A DNA stretch of 51,041 bases from Methanobacteriota archaeon (GTDB taxonomy: Archaea > Halobacteriota > Methanosarcinia > Methanosarcinales > Methanosarcinaceae). Shown piece after piece: positions 41,412 through 47,783 of the stretch (position 1 is the first letter of the stretch; each line of letters starts with the position of its first letter). The notes beneath the pieces are model-generated. The model saw only the letters and a program-made list of their open reading frames with translations. It searched no databases and was not told the DNA's origin. The DNA is taken from assembly GCA_016841265.1 (NCBI GenBank), contig JAENZL010000019.1:2288-53328 (forward strand), read 5' to 3'. The position numbers and the translations under genes are program-made.

Positions 41412-42935
41412 ATGGCCAAATGTATAAAGTGCGGTGAAGAAGAGCTTGATTCACAGAAAAAAATAGAGGTAGTTCAGGGAATGAAAAAATACGATGTAAT
41501 TGTTGTCGGAGCGGGTGTCAGTGGGCTCCTGGCTGCGCTTACGCTTTCCAAGCATGGGAAAAAGGTACTGGTTCTTGAAAAAAGCAGGTACCCTGGGGGA
41601 AACTGTAACAGCTATATGGTAGATGGCTTCCAGGTGGATACCGGAGCCCATGCCATAACCCATCTCCATGAGGGCCCCCTCAGGAGACTCATGGACAACT
41701 ACTTTGACTACCTGCCGATTTTCGAAGCCTACGGGCACTACTATGTTCGGACAGAAAATTCCTTTACCAAAGTCCCTTCAAACCTGAGGGATTTCGTTAC
41801 TTTCGACGTACTCCCCAGAAAGGACAGGCTCATGCTTTCCCAGTCGATTACGAAAGCTCTGACCCTTTCCACTTTCGGGGTGGACCTTTCGGGGCAGTCC
41901 GTGTATGATTACCTGCCAAAGAACCTTTCCAAAGATACCTATGATTTCGTGGACACTATTTCCGGCTTCCTTTCCGGCAGGTCCATGAAAGAGACTTCAG
42001 CTTACCGGATCCTTACGGGCAGCAGTTTTGTAAGGGACAGCATAACCCAGGAACAATTCGATGAAATGATCGGGAGGTTGGAACCCAGAAAAAGGCAGTC
42101 CACAGAGTCCATTCTGGCTTCCCTGCTTCCCCTTAACCTGCACTCTTCCCTCCAGGCCCGGATGAATAGGGTTTCCCAGCCCTTCACGTCCCTGGAAAGG
42201 CTTGCCACTAACAGGGTTAACTATTCCCAGGGCTATCCCAGAAAGGGCCTGAAATCCCTCCTTAACGCCATAATCTATTCTCTCCCGGACCTGGTAGAAA
42301 TCAAAACCGAGTGTGAGGTTACAGGCATCCATGTGCAGGACGGTAAGGTTACAGGCGTGGAAGCCGATGAAGCCTACTCCGCAGAAATTGTCATCTATAC
42401 CGGATTTTCAACCGAACTCCCGAATCTGATAAAGGATCTGCCTTCGGATTACCTGGAAAACCTGAAAGGGATCGTCCACAGTAAAAGCCTCACAATCTGG
42501 CTGGGCCTACAAAAAAACCTTCCTGAGTTTAACTACATCGGTTCCGAGATCTGGTTCAAGGACTTTGCTTACTGGGCAATGCCTATCAGCAACTATGACC
42601 CATCCCTTGCTCCGAAAGACAAGCAGCTCGTGGGCTTTTCCTTCGTGATCAACGAACACAGAAGCGAAAAACACGAGATCAAGAGGGCCTATGATACGAT
42701 TCATCGTGCCCTCCCGAACATCGAGCAGCAAATAGTGATGAAGCACGAGCAGATCATAATCCCCGAAAAAGCCGCAGTTACCATAGACGGAAAATTCGCA
42801 GACATCCGTACCCCTGTAAAGAACCTCTACATTGTCGGTACAGACACTGATAAGCGCAGTATGGGAATCACCAGGGCCTCCTATTCGATAATTGAACTCC
42901 TAAAAATCCTGAATGATGATGGGATACTTCACTGA
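41412..42935 (+). CDS. FAD-dependent amine-oxidase/phytoene-desaturase-type protein with CxxC N-terminus
   Basis: A 507-aa flavoprotein. The Rossmann motif VIVVGAGVSGLLAALTLSKHG begins near residue 29 and is followed by VLEKSRYPGGNCNSY, the layout of the phytoene desaturase/CrtI and amine oxidase superfamily. The C-terminal FAD segment is NLYIVGTDTDKRSMGITRASYS near 475-495. The first 23 residues (MAKCIKCGEEELDSQKK) add a single CxxC pair like half a zinc ribbon. An internal ATG at 41481, preceded by GAGGTAGTTCAGGG, would give a standard-length protein without it. Carotenoid substrates are not expected in most methanogens, so the reaction is unknown; other polyprenyl or redox roles are possible. 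A Rieske protein gene follows after a pyrimidine-rich repeat. Confidence 0.75.
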   Translation: MAKCIKCGEEELDSQKKIEVVQGMKKYDVIVVGAGVSGLLAALTLSKHGKKVLVLEKSRYPGGNCNSYMVDGFQVDTGAHAITHLHEGPLRRLMDNYFDYLPIFEAYGHYYVRTENSFTKVPSNLRDFVTFDVLPRKDRLMLSQSITKALTLSTFGVDLSGQSVYDYLPKNLSKDTYDFVDTISGFLSGRSMKETSAYRILTGSSFVRDSITQEQFDEMIGRLEPRKRQSTESILASLLPLNLHSSLQARMNRVSQPFTSLERLATNRVNYSQGYPRKGLKSLLNAIIYSLPDLVEIKTECEVTGIHVQDGKVTGVEADEAYSAEIVIYTGFSTELPNLIKDLPSDYLENLKGIVHSKSLTIWLGLQKNLPEFNYIGSEIWFKDFAYWAMPISNYDPSLAPKDKQLVGFSFVINEHRSEKHEIKRAYDTIHRALPNIEQQIVMKHEQIIIPEKAAVTIDGKFADIRTPVKNLYIVGTDTDKRSMGITRASYSIIELLKILNDDGILH

Positions 42936-43279
42936 TATGGAGCTTTTTCAGTTTCCTTTTTCAGTTTCCTTTTTCAGTTTCCTTTTTCAATCCCCTTTTT
43001 CAGTTTCCTTTTTCAGTTTCCTTTTTCAATCTCCTTTTTCAGTTTCCTTTCCCAGTTTCCTTTCCCAGTTTCCTTTCCCAGTTTCCTTTTTCAGTTTCCT
43101 TTTTCAATCTCCTTTTTCATCATCTCTCATCTTCAATCTCCTTTTTCATCATCTCTCATTTTCCGCAACCTTCATTTCAGCTTGAGCTTTTCCCTTCTCC
43201 GGCAAAAGCTTATATCGGGCTCCCCGACTAATAATAAGCAGGTAATAAAACCCCGTAAAGGGTTGAAGGTGTGTGGTAA
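42936..43279. other. Intergenic region dominated by a pyrimidine repeat
   Basis: The 13-bp array (42944-43160) fills most of this spacer. The remainder contains the ribosome-binding region of the Rieske gene. No gene is seen. Confidence 0.6.
42944..43160. repeat. 13-bp pyrimidine-rich tandem repeat
   Basis: TTTTTCAGTTTCC and variants (caatcccc, ccagtttcc, catcatctctcat) run for over 200 bases with a 13-bp period. The top strand is almost free of G, so the transcript would be C/U-rich and the DNA could form unusual structures. Confidence 0.9.
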
Positions 43280-43645
43280 ATGGTATCAGAAAAGACATCC
43301 GGAATAATTTCAGGAACCAGTGATTCATCCAGGTTTGAACCTCCCTGGCATTATGCGACTGAGGAAAGCGGATTGAAGGAAGGAAATCTTCACCTCGTGG
43401 AAATTGATGGAAAAGGCATACTCTTCATTAAAAAAGAAGATCAGATCTACGCATTTTCAAATACCTGTCCTCATGCACGCTGTCCGCTGGACAGGGGCAC
43501 ACTTGAAGCCCATGTGCTTAAGTGCATCTGCCATGGAAGGAGGTTTGACATCAGGACCGGGGAATGCCTGAACGACAGTCTTGAATTAAAGAAGGTTGAG
43601 TGGAAACTTGAAGGCGGAAAAATAGGGGTAAAGATAGAAGAATAA
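43280..43645 (+). CDS. Rieske-type 2Fe-2S ferredoxin
   Basis: A 121-aa soluble iron-sulfur protein. The two Rieske cluster motifs are present: CPHARC (Cys-x-His, near residues 62-67) and CICHGRRFD (Cys-x-x-His, near 82-90), separated by the usual spacing. The first 30 residues are polar and show no signal peptide or membrane helix, so it is a cytosolic ferredoxin-like Rieske protein rather than a bc1-complex subunit. Such proteins pass electrons to oxygenases or reductases; the flavoprotein encoded just upstream is a possible partner, though a 344-bp repeat-filled gap separates them. The ATG at 43280 is preceded by GAAGGTG. Confidence 0.85.
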   Translation: MVSEKTSGIISGTSDSSRFEPPWHYATEESGLKEGNLHLVEIDGKGILFIKKEDQIYAFSNTCPHARCPLDRGTLEAHVLKCICHGRRFDIRTGECLNDSLELKKVEWKLEGGKIGVKIEE

Positions 43646-43792
43646 TTTTTGTGCCTGATCCCGAATTATGCCTGATTCCGAAATAGAACGGGCAGGCGTA
43701 TTGTTGATCCGGAGTGTTGCCGATCAGGAGCCGGCGAGGAAACCTGTTTAGGCTTTAACTCATGGAATTTAATTTTTCAGGGAGGAAAAAAT

Positions 43793-44059
43793 ATTAGCAA
43801 TCTATCCGAAAATTCAGGGACTTTAAGCCTGGTATGCGGGCTTGTAAGCATCTTCTTTTCCCTGTCTTTCTTGCTGGGCATCGGGAGCGTGTTTTTAACA
43901 TCTTTTGCGATACCTTTTGCTTTCATAGGCATCGTTCTTGCCAGGGCACGCCTGAAAAAAGGACCTGATAGTGTAGCAAGGGCAGGACTTATTGCCAGTG
44001 TCTTTGGCTTTTTGCTGAACCTCGCTTCTTTTGCACTCTTTCTGTTGTTTTTCCGATAA
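43793..44059 (+). CDS. Small DUF4190-like membrane protein, starting at ATT
   Basis: An 88-codon protein with two hydrophobic segments: LSLVCGLVSIFFSLSFLLGIGSVFL...FAFIGIVLARARL (a hairpin with a Gly-rich turn) and AGLIASVFGFLLNLASFALFLLFF. The order, with KKGPDSVARAGLIAS between, resembles DUF4190-type proteins, whose role is unknown. The usual ORF call starts at an internal TTG (43871) inside the first membrane helix, which is implausible. Reading upstream, the frame is open to ATT at 43793, with GGAGG at 43781-43785 seven bases before it and no ATG, GTG or TTG in between. Confidence 0.6.
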   Translation: MSNLSENSGTLSLVCGLVSIFFSLSFLLGIGSVFLTSFAIPFAFIGIVLARARLKKGPDSVARAGLIASVFGFLLNLASFALFLLFFR

Positions 44060-44227: not shown

Positions 44228-44881
44228 ATGGCAAACGAAGAAATTTTTGATAAACTTTGCGACTCTGTCGTTAATCAGAATATCGCAGGATGCGTACAGT
44301 TAACCCAGGAAGCTCTTTCTGCTGGAATCCCGGCACTCGATATCATCACAAAGGGCCTTTCCGTAGGGATGAAGATCATCGGAGACAAGTTTGAAGCCGC
44401 CGAAATCTTCCTGCCCCAGATAATGATGTCTGCAAAAGCAATGAGCGGTGCAATGGAAATCCTTACTCCCGAAATTGAAAAGACCAGGAAGGAAGGAGAA
44501 GAAACCGGGCTTGCAATCACTTTTGTTGCAGAAGGGGACATCCACGACATCGGACACCGCCTTGTCTCAACCATGCTCGGAGCAAATGGTTTCGATATCC
44601 TTGACCTCGGAACCGACGTCCTCAACGAGACTGTTGTGGAAGAGGCTGCAAAGCACAAGGGAGAAAAAGTCATTCTTGTAGGTTCCGCCCTTATGACCAC
44701 TTCCATGCTCGGCCAGAAGGACCTCATGGACCTGCTCAGGGAAGAAAATCTGAGAGACAGTGTAAAGTGCATGTTCGGAGGAGCCCCTGTTTCTGACGGC
44801 TGGATCGCTGAAATCGGAGCAGACGCAACCGCAGAGAACGCTGCAGAAGCCGCAAAAGTAGCTCTTGAAGTTATGAAATAA
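44228..44881 (+). CDS. mtmC: Monomethylamine corrinoid protein MtmC
   Basis: A 217-aa cytosolic corrinoid protein that accepts the methyl group of monomethylamine from MtmB and passes it, through MtbA, to coenzyme M in methanogenesis. The N-terminal helical cap domain covers about 1-90. The B12-binding Rossmann domain has the DxHxxG motif GDIHDIGHRLV, with His106 as the lower axial cobalt ligand, and downstream GxxG elements (VLVGSALMTTSM and FGGAPVSDGW). GGAGG lies seven bases before the ATG. The gene is 15 bp upstream of mtmB, forming an mtmCB operon. Assignment as MtmC rather than MtbC or MttC rests on the neighbouring mtmB. Confidence 0.93.
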   Translation: MANEEIFDKLCDSVVNQNIAGCVQLTQEALSAGIPALDIITKGLSVGMKIIGDKFEAAEIFLPQIMMSAKAMSGAMEILTPEIEKTRKEGEETGLAITFVAEGDIHDIGHRLVSTMLGANGFDILDLGTDVLNETVVEEAAKHKGEKVILVGSALMTTSMLGQKDLMDLLREENLRDSVKCMFGGAPVSDGWIAEIGADATAENAAEAAKVALEVMK

Positions 44882-44896
44882 ACGGGGGAACCACAT

Positions 44897-46273
44897 ATGA
44901 CATTCAGAAAATCATTTGATTGCTACGATTTTTACGACAGAGCAAAAGTCGGAGAGAAGTGCACCCAGGACGACTGGGACCTCATGAAAATCCCAATGAA
45001 GGCAATGGAGCTCAAACAGAAGTACGGGCTTGACTTCAAGGGAGAATTTGTCCCCACAGACAAAGAAATGATGGGAAAGCTTTTCAATGCCGGCTTTGAG
45101 ATGCTTCTGGACCTCGGTATCTACTGTACCGACACCCACAGGATCGTCAAGTACACCGAAGACGAAATCTGGGATGCACTCAACAACGTCCAGAAGGAAT
45201 TCACCCTCGGGACCGGCAGGGATGCAGTCCACGTCTCCAAGAGAGAAGTAGGCGACAAGAAGAAGCCAATTATCCAGGGAGGTCCTACCGGGTCCCCAAT
45301 CTCCGAAGACGTCTTCATGCCTGTCCACATGAGCTACGCCCTGGAAAAGGAAGTAGACACCATTGTAGACGGTGTTATGACCTCTGTCCGCGGCAAGCCT
45401 CCAATTCCGGGAAGCCCCTATGAAGTCCTGGCATCAAAGACCGAAACCAGGCTCATCAAGCAGGCAGCAGCAATGGCAGGCCGCCCAGGCATGGGCATAT
45501 AGGGCCCTGAGACCTCCCTGTCCGCTCAGGGAAACATTGCATCTGACTGCTACGGCGGCCAGATCTCCTCCGACAGCCACGAAGTCTCCCAGCTCAACGA
45601 GCTGAAGATCGACCTCGATGCAATCGCAGTTATCGCCCACTACAAAGGCAACAGCGACATCATCATGGACGAACAGATGCCAATCTTCGGCGGATACGCC
45701 GGCGGCATCGAAGAGACCACCATCGTGGACATTGCAACCCACATCAACTCAATCATCATGAGCAGCGCAAGCTGGCACCTTGACGGTCCTGTCCACATCC
45801 GCTGGGGATCCACCAACACCAGGGAAACCCTCACAATCGCAGGCTGGGCATGTGCAACTATCTCCGAGTTTACGGACATCCTCTCCGGGAACCAGTACTA
45901 CCCATGTGCAGGCCCCTGTACCGAGATGTGTCTCCTCGAAGCCTCCGCCCAGTCCATGACTGACACCGCTTCAGGCCGTGAAATCCTCTCCGGTGTGGCA
46001 GCAGCAAAGGGTGTCGTCACCGACAAGACCACAGGTATGGAAGCCAGGATGATGGGAGAAGTCGCAAGGGCAACAGCAGGCATGGAAATCGCAGAAGTCA
46101 ACGGAATCCTCGACAAGCTCGTCGGCCTCTACGAGAAGAACTATGCAAGCGCACCCGCAGGCAAGACCTTCCAGGAATGCTACGACGTTAAGACCATCAC
46201 CCCAACCGACGAATACATGCAGGTCTACGCCGGAGCAAGGAAGCAGCTCGAAGACCTCGGACTCGTCTTCTAA
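44897..46273 (+). CDS. mtmB: Monomethylamine:corrinoid methyltransferase MtmB, pyrrolysine-containing
   Basis: A 458-residue methyltransferase that transfers the methyl group of monomethylamine to the Co(I) form of MtmC. An in-frame TAG at 45500-45502 is codon 202, the position at which pyrrolysine occurs in MtmB, and the frame continues uninterrupted to TAA at 46271-46273 (FSYS-like conservation on both sides, for example AAAMAGRPGMGI before and GPETSLSAQGNIASDCYGGQ after). Automated ORF callers split it into a 201-aa and a 202-aa piece. The ribosome-binding site is GGGGG nine bases upstream of the ATG. Pyrrolysine biosynthesis and tRNA genes are not in this window. A strong terminator follows. 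Confidence 0.96.
45500..45502 (+). other. In-frame amber codon read as pyrrolysine
   Basis: TAG at codon 202 of mtmB is decoded as pyrrolysine (Pyl, O) in Methanosarcina MtmB. It is the active-site residue that is thought to bind and orient the methylamine. Confidence 0.95.
45505..45541 (+). promoter_or_regulatory. PYLIS-like stem-loop after the amber codon
   Basis: CCCTGAG (45505-45511) pairs with CTCAGGG (45535-45541), beginning two bases after the TAG. This is the position of the proposed pyrrolysine insertion element of mtmB. Its need for readthrough is debated in the literature. Confidence 0.6.
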
Positions 46274-46901: not shown

Positions 46902-47783
46902 ATTCTTCCGCTGGATGAAACCGAAGCTTTTGAAATGGGGATGGCTGCAGTCAATGAAGGGAGCGAAGCTGAGGTCATACAACTTCTGAATTACCTGGAT
47001 GAAATTGCGGTTAAGTATGCCGGGGAAGGCAAGGAAGCCGATACCCGGAGAATAGTTGAGTACATAAAGGGTATCGGAAGAGCGGCAGCTTTAAAACGGC
47101 TGGAAATGGCGGCTATTACCTCACTCCTGCTCCTGGCTCCGCTTGCAAAGGAAGCCTGCAGGCAGCAGATGGAAAATGCTCTTGTAAGCATTGCCCTGGC
47201 GATCGGGGAGGTTGGAAAGGCTGCGGGAGAACAGAAACTTGAGGTTCCCGCAAAAGTGGCCGCTTCCTGCCTGGGAGAGATGGGGAACACGGCTGCTTGC
47301 AGGAAACTGAAAAAAGAAACAATAGCGATTATTTTTTCACTGGGGGAGATCGGAAAAAGCGTAACCCAGCAGAAACTCGGGGACGCTGCGGAAAGCACGC
47401 TTGCCTGGCTGGGGATTGCCGGGGAGGTTGCCGCAAGCCAGAATTTTGAGAATGCCGCGCTAAATGCCGAGTTCCTCCTGCAGGAACTGGGGTCCAGGGC
47501 GATTGAAAAGGACCTGAAGAAGGCTGCCGATGCAACTGCCCGTTCCCTGGAGAGCATAGGGCGAGCTGCAGATGAGCAGGGGCTTAAAAAGGCACGTCTG
47601 CAGGCAGCATATTCCCTGGAGACGATCAAATTTGACGCCGAGGACCGCTATCTTATGAGCGCTTCCATCATTGCAGGGGTAGCTCTCCAGTATTTCGAGA
47701 ACTTTGAAACGGAAAAGGAAGAAATAAGCCGCAAGAAAACCCGTAATGTAAAGAGACGGTTCCCGGAGGGGAACGCTGAATAA
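46902..47783 (+). CDS. Alpha-helical repeat (HEAT/ARM-like) protein, likely starting at ATT
   Basis: A protein of 293 codons (282 aa from the first ATG at 46935). From about residue 50 to 250 it consists of repeats of about 33 residues, each with a pattern like AxxxAxxLGEIGKxAxxQKLExAA, forming paired helices as in HEAT or ARM scaffolds. It is acidic and soluble. It is a paralog of the next gene (47919-48758). The paralog's N-terminus (ILNEARATDLGLSSV) aligns with residues encoded upstream of 46935 (ILPLDETEAFEMGMAAV), which argues that translation begins further up. ATT at 46902 lies seven bases after GGGGG (46890-46894). Function is unknown. Confidence 0.6.
   Translation: MLPLDETEAFEMGMAAVNEGSEAEVIQLLNYLDEIAVKYAGEGKEADTRRIVEYIKGIGRAAALKRLEMAAITSLLLLAPLAKEACRQQMENALVSIALAIGEVGKAAGEQKLEVPAKVAASCLGEMGNTAACRKLKKETIAIIFSLGEIGKSVTQQKLGDAAESTLAWLGIAGEVAASQNFENAALNAEFLLQELGSRAIEKDLKKAADATARSLESIGRAADEQGLKKARLQAAYSLETIKFDAEDRYLMSASIIAGVALQYFENFETEKEEISRKKTRNVKRRFPEGNAE

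Follow-up and report, generated by a model that had tools for sequence, protein, structure and literature searches.

A small membrane protein gene of Methanosarcina with a probable AUU or AUC start codon, identified by comparison of orthologs

Comparison of 14 intact orthologs indicates that a small membrane protein gene of the archaeal genus Methanosarcina very probably starts at AUU or AUC, and that this start is kept across the genus (rough probability 0.88). The gene was examined in a 51,041-nucleotide stretch of DNA (the window) from a genome that we designate G000. The original prediction, made from this one sequence, had pointed to a GGAGG followed seven bases later by an ATT in frame with an intact protein, a description that holds for a product of 88 residues ending at position 44,059. 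It had also called for alignment with relatives; that alignment has now been made, and it revealed the conservation of ATT/ATC, which reading of a single sequence could not show.

All features of the start region lie on the forward strand. The Shine-Dalgarno (SD) sequence GGAGG, recognized from the sequence and from the ortholog comparison, occupies positions 43,781-43,785, and the spacer AAAAAAT (43,786-43,792) separates it from the ATT at 43,793-43,795. The gene extends from 43,793 to 44,059, with 88 codons and a TAA stop at 44,057-44,059, and its in-frame ratio of nonsynonymous to synonymous polymorphism (pN/pS) marks it as coding. The nearest in-frame stop on the 5' side is a TGA at 43,673-43,675, from which the frame is open through the ATT. 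Between this TGA and a TTG at 43,871-43,873 the window contains no ATG, GTG or TTG in frame. The TTG is codon 27 and falls inside the first hydrophobic stretch, just as had been predicted when it was named the sole ordinary start nearby and placed within a helix. It is not conserved.

When 111 genomes of the family were searched with a profile, 21 of them gave a match at E of 0.01 or below. Fourteen of them carry an intact, full-length gene, four (G064, G138, G146 and G147) have broken copies or traces only, and three (G128, G042 and G038) gave weak matches elsewhere, which were dropped. Codon 1 of the intact orthologs reads ATT in 12 cases and ATC in two (G023 and G060), and in none is it ATG, GTG, TTG or CTG. 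A sequencing error that turned an ATG into the ATT of the window therefore finds no backing, since ATG occurs at this position in 0/14 orthologs. The first two letters of codon 1, AT, never vary, and only T or C occurs as the third. An SD sequence precedes codon 1 in every ortholog, as GGAGG at 7 nt (10 orthologs) or 8 nt (three), or as GGGGG at 7 nt (G143). Of the 33 columns from -45 to -13 none is invariant; codons 2-8 have 3 invariant columns of 21, and among the third positions of codons 2-88 the count is only 8 of 87. In the broken copy of G147 the start position reads ATA. Since four genomes of the family retain broken copies or traces only, the gene is dispensable.

When the search was widened to 237 genomes, it added G083 and G095, which belong to another family, and G114 (E 0.0063), which stayed outside the comparison. 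In both G083 and G095 an ATG aligns, without gaps, with the column of the ATT, and this shared column, together with the 14 orthologs, identifies the ATT as the likely start codon. In a tree of the neighboring FAD protein from 18 genomes, the two ATC species fall into separate clades that also contain ATT relatives, and ATC was therefore probably gained twice and ATG never. The accompanying look at start codons of the neighbor genes covered only the sequence 5' of each match and gave no start for many FAD and repeat-protein rows, and the tree alone is used here. A search for relatives in viral contigs found none.

The distribution of substitutions shows that coding selection begins at codon 2 and not upstream. 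Within the gene pN/pS is 0.24-0.47 in frame versus 0.89 to 2.23 in the shifted frames, and it is 0.35 for codons 2-26. For codons 2-8 the ratio is 0.47 in frame versus 1.21 and 1.16 in the shifted frames, a value to be read with the fast evolution of these codons and the variation of residue 2 between orthologs in mind. On the 5' side of codon 1 the in-frame ratio is 0.84-0.91. Ser5 is kept in all 14 orthologs through the use of all four TCN codons. In G142, G151 and G154 the SD spacing differs by one base, which moves the SD out of frame; because such a change alters the upstream frame, the upstream region is not coding. From the SD to +15 no ATG, GTG, TTG or CTG was found in any frame of the 14 orthologs, except for a CTG at +9 or +13 in five. 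With its constancy as ATT or ATC in every intact ortholog and the constraint on the codons that precede the helix, the proposed ATT start is thus supported. The antisense frame is open in 8/14 orthologs and has one stop in the remaining six, and we treat it as a probable by-product of the codon pattern of the sense strand. The consensus RNA structure near the start (-4.8 kcal/mol) consists of many G-U pairs to distant columns and contains no convincing element.

If each species instead began translation at an ordinary codon of its own farther upstream, the ATT would merely be internal to a longer protein. Seven orthologs do have an in-frame upstream ATG, GTG or TTG (ATG at -8 in G142, GTG at -10 in G144 and G153, and TTG at -11 to -31 in the others), but the position of these codons varies, the SD sits between them and the conserved part in a frame that is not kept, and the upstream pN/pS speaks against coding there. 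The other seven (G000, G003, G001, G068, G023, G137 and G154) have no canonical start before the nearest stop, and in G003, G001 and G068 a TAA or TGA stands only 6-8 codons 5' of codon 1. For at least these seven genomes the sequences refute an ordinary upstream start, and we regard it as very improbable for the gene as a whole. Read-through of the upstream stop as pyrrolysine can be ruled out, as the nearest stops in G000, G003, G001 and G068 are TGA or TAA and not TAG. Translation might also begin within the first helix, at TTG 43,871 or a similar codon. In the window this TTG is indeed the first ordinary start, and several orthologs have a TTG at codon 11 or 27/28; the internal canonical codons, however, are not conserved. 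G046 has none in codons 1-88, the first in G023 is codon 54 and the first in G142 and G151 is codon 82. Moreover, constraint is already present on the codons before the helix, and no conserved SD was seen before the internal starts in the ortholog alignment. Orthologs that start inside the helix, which would have overturned the original prediction, were thus not found, and we give an internal start almost no credence.

A short upstream reading frame could also feed ribosomes into the gene by termination-reinitiation or frameshifting, with its stop overlapping the start as ATTAG or ATTAA. The ATT and the two bases that follow it (43,793-43,797 in the window) create such a TAG or TAA in 12/14 orthologs, and in 6/14 an out-of-frame ORF that starts at most 90 nt upstream ends exactly at the overlapping stop. 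The other eight orthologs lack such an ORF: that of G060 ends 3 nt later, and G046 and G143 lack any overlapping out-of-frame ORF within 90 nt. Where the upstream ORFs exist, their start codons and positions differ among species, and the overlapping stop is absent in both ATC orthologs. Since codon 2 encodes Ser (AGY) or Asn (AAC), the TAG or TAA is probably a by-product of the codons used. Reinitiation would itself require AUY (AUU or AUC) as a start codon, and the chance that this route accounts for the conserved site is, in our judgment, slight. Direct initiation at AUU/AUC remains the reading that we prefer.

The case rests on conservation across 14 species, as the motif is not exceptional in one genome. 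In 379 kb of DNA (the window and 328 kb of G003) there are 41 instances of GGAGG followed, after six to eight bases, by ATT, ATC or ATA and at least 50 open codons, and 11 of these frames, two of which belong to this gene, have no upstream canonical start. When the pattern was searched at up to 3 mismatches and compared with shuffles, there were 2 matches versus 5.55 expected, one of them exact, namely this site. Inside a single genome the GGAGG-ATT motif alone is no better than chance. A scan for conserved frames that extend 5' of all canonical starts, comparing the window with the syntenic 68 kb of G003, flagged 123 pairs. Owing to the close similarity of the two genomes most of these are antisense or shifted frames, and the result was set aside. 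A histogram of SD spacings, with small counts under a loose filter, was likewise left out of the argument.

Since ATG is absent in 14 species despite variable third positions, we lean towards the view, helped by analogy with known cases, that selection for low or regulated expression has kept the non-AUG start. A rival account holds that the start is non-canonical yet functionless: an ancestral ATG was lost to ATT, and the neutral change was fixed once and tolerated. It opposes selection only and leaves AUU as the start. A strong SD can partly rescue a weak start, and the loss of the gene in some species makes low demand plausible. On the other hand, with no more than 8/87 third positions invariant there was ample chance for the codon to revert to ATG or to become ATA by drift, but all 14 orthologs have T or C in third place, and we judge a purely neutral origin rather unlikely.

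Initiation at this site probably works as follows. The strong SD at optimal distance would position the ribosome (30S subunit) on AUY, and the initiator tRNA would pair with the first two of the three bases, so that the first residue would presumably be Met. A start of this kind would keep the yield of the small membrane protein low and make it dependent on the stringency of initiation. Archaea are not known to have IF3; they use aIF1, which sets that stringency. In archaea aIF1 is reported to discriminate against non-canonical starts (PMC8211752, citing Hasenohrl 2006 and 2009; PMC6237735), and an AUY start should therefore give a low, aIF1-dependent yield. By extension, the AUU/AUC codon may be a built-in archaeal sensor of initiation stringency, through which the level or activity of aIF1 sets the amount of membrane protein, and other Methanosarcina genes may carry such starts, unseen by annotation. 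We offer this last idea as a tentative one, possible but doubtful.

By these comparisons the conserved AUU/AUC start appears comparable with those of bacterial infC and sigR. According to PMC5472188, infC, the gene for IF3, starts at ATT in E. coli and at ATC in Streptomyces, and Streptomyces sigR starts at GTC in 32/34 cases and at GTT in 2, is repressed by IF3, has a strong conserved SD and was misannotated. The archaeal gene resembles infC in its conserved use of the same two codons; unlike infC, which encodes a fidelity factor and autoregulates, it specifies a small membrane protein of archaea. With sigR it has in common that a gene for something other than an initiation factor bears a genus-wide non-canonical start and a strong conserved SD. 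It differs from sigR in codon, domain of life and product, and whereas the sigR start was proven by stop-codon replacement, the present one is supported by comparison. The traits of the infC and sigR kind that we looked for are all present: a conserved start other than ATG, GTG or TTG, a strong SD at normal spacing and no usable canonical start in frame.

Within archaea, a review names AUG, GUG and UUG alone as starts in the part available to us (PMC7531240), and a literature search whose reach into subscription papers was mostly limited found no archaeal AUU start in print. The small proteome of M. mazei obtained by Ribo-seq is closest to the present case, since it belongs to the same genus and comprises numerous small proteins, absent from annotation, whose starts are unusual. 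As described in the accessible portion of that report, the starts are ATG, TTG, GTG and CTG and the proteins have at most 70 amino acids (PMC11456600), and so a protein of 88 amino acids with an ATT start would fall outside the catalogue. Gene finders assume ATG, GTG or TTG, and annotation should therefore miss or shorten this gene. An AUY start kept to genus depth would mean that ribosomes of archaea do use this codon for initiation in nature, with selection preventing a change to AUG, and the gene could serve research on archaeal translation as a natural reporter of start-codon fidelity (aIF1). Comparative alignment may in this way reveal genes missed by annotation or Ribo-seq pipelines that are limited to few start codons.

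The product is a membrane protein, as predicted, although the helix count of two is probably incorrect. Hydropathy gives a short polar N-terminus and hydrophobic stretches that cover roughly residues 8-30, 30-52 and 64-88, with a charged loop at 51-63, so that three hydrophobic stretches are more probable than two helices. The AlphaFold model has one long and one shorter helix and is of low confidence (pLDDT 77.6, pTM 0.44). Scans of the 16 members against Pfam, and of the window protein against NCBIfam, matched no model at cutoff. DUF4190 (PF13828) was rejected: the match to residues 10-76 is weak (E 0.027, 14.6 bits versus a gathering cutoff of 35), and 5/16 members reach an E of 1 or lower, with 0.027 as the best value. 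EMC6 (PF07019) likewise gave no significant profile match (8/16 members with an E of 1 or lower, the best being 0.036). A translation initiation factor, as in the case of infC, is also excluded, as no such Pfam or NCBIfam family was matched and the protein is small and hydrophobic. A search of the genome revealed no paralogue.

In 14/14 loci the membrane protein gene lies 3' of a gene for an FAD-dependent oxidoreductase of the CrtI/amine-oxidase type (41,481-42,935, forward strand), a conserved neighbor assigned by family match and gene order. The longest ORF of the latter, from 41,412, is over-extended; a conserved GAGGTAGTTTAGGGAATG-like stretch and upstream stops in relatives point to ATG 41,481 as the true start. 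Some bases 5' of this ATG are likewise conserved. A Rieske [2Fe-2S] ferredoxin gene (43,280-43,645, forward strand) lies between the two genes in 11/14 loci; it is partial in G142 and missing in G023, G046 and G154. This position suggests that the membrane protein may be a partner of the neighboring FAD/Rieske redox pair. Between the FAD and Rieske genes, at positions 42,936-43,160, units of the CTTTTTCAGTTTC type form a degenerate tandem repeat. The membrane protein gene is often 5' of mtmC-mtmB: downstream of it, in part of the loci, is a methylamine corrinoid protein gene (mtmC-like, 44,228-44,881, forward strand), and in the window mtmB, for monomethylamine methyltransferase, follows at 44,897-46,273 on the same strand. 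The in-frame TAG of mtmB at 45,500-45,502 is presumably a pyrrolysine codon, and ORF callers split the gene into 44,897-45,502 and a remainder after the TAG. Positions 46,935-47,783 encode a member of an alanine-rich, repeat-like protein family, of which several more copies lie downstream and which is conserved behind the locus in many genomes.

Another gene may have a start of the same type. It lies at L065:9305-10769 (G003:C1, about 4009317), has orthologs in L068 (G000:C63) and L069 (G002), and is what we take to be a HerA/DUF87-like ATPase gene. In these three genomes of the window's genus an ATC stands 8 bases after GGAGG, there is no upstream canonical start and a stop lies 7 codons before the ATC. 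The first ATG is codon 67, just past a P-loop-like GKRGYGKS, and one of the three has a GTG at codon 15. In G001 and in the relatives from the neighboring genus, an ATG stands in frame a few codons farther 5'. The gene has either gained a second AUC start once the old ATG fell out of frame or undergone a frameshift, and it is a candidate for another such start unseen by annotation.
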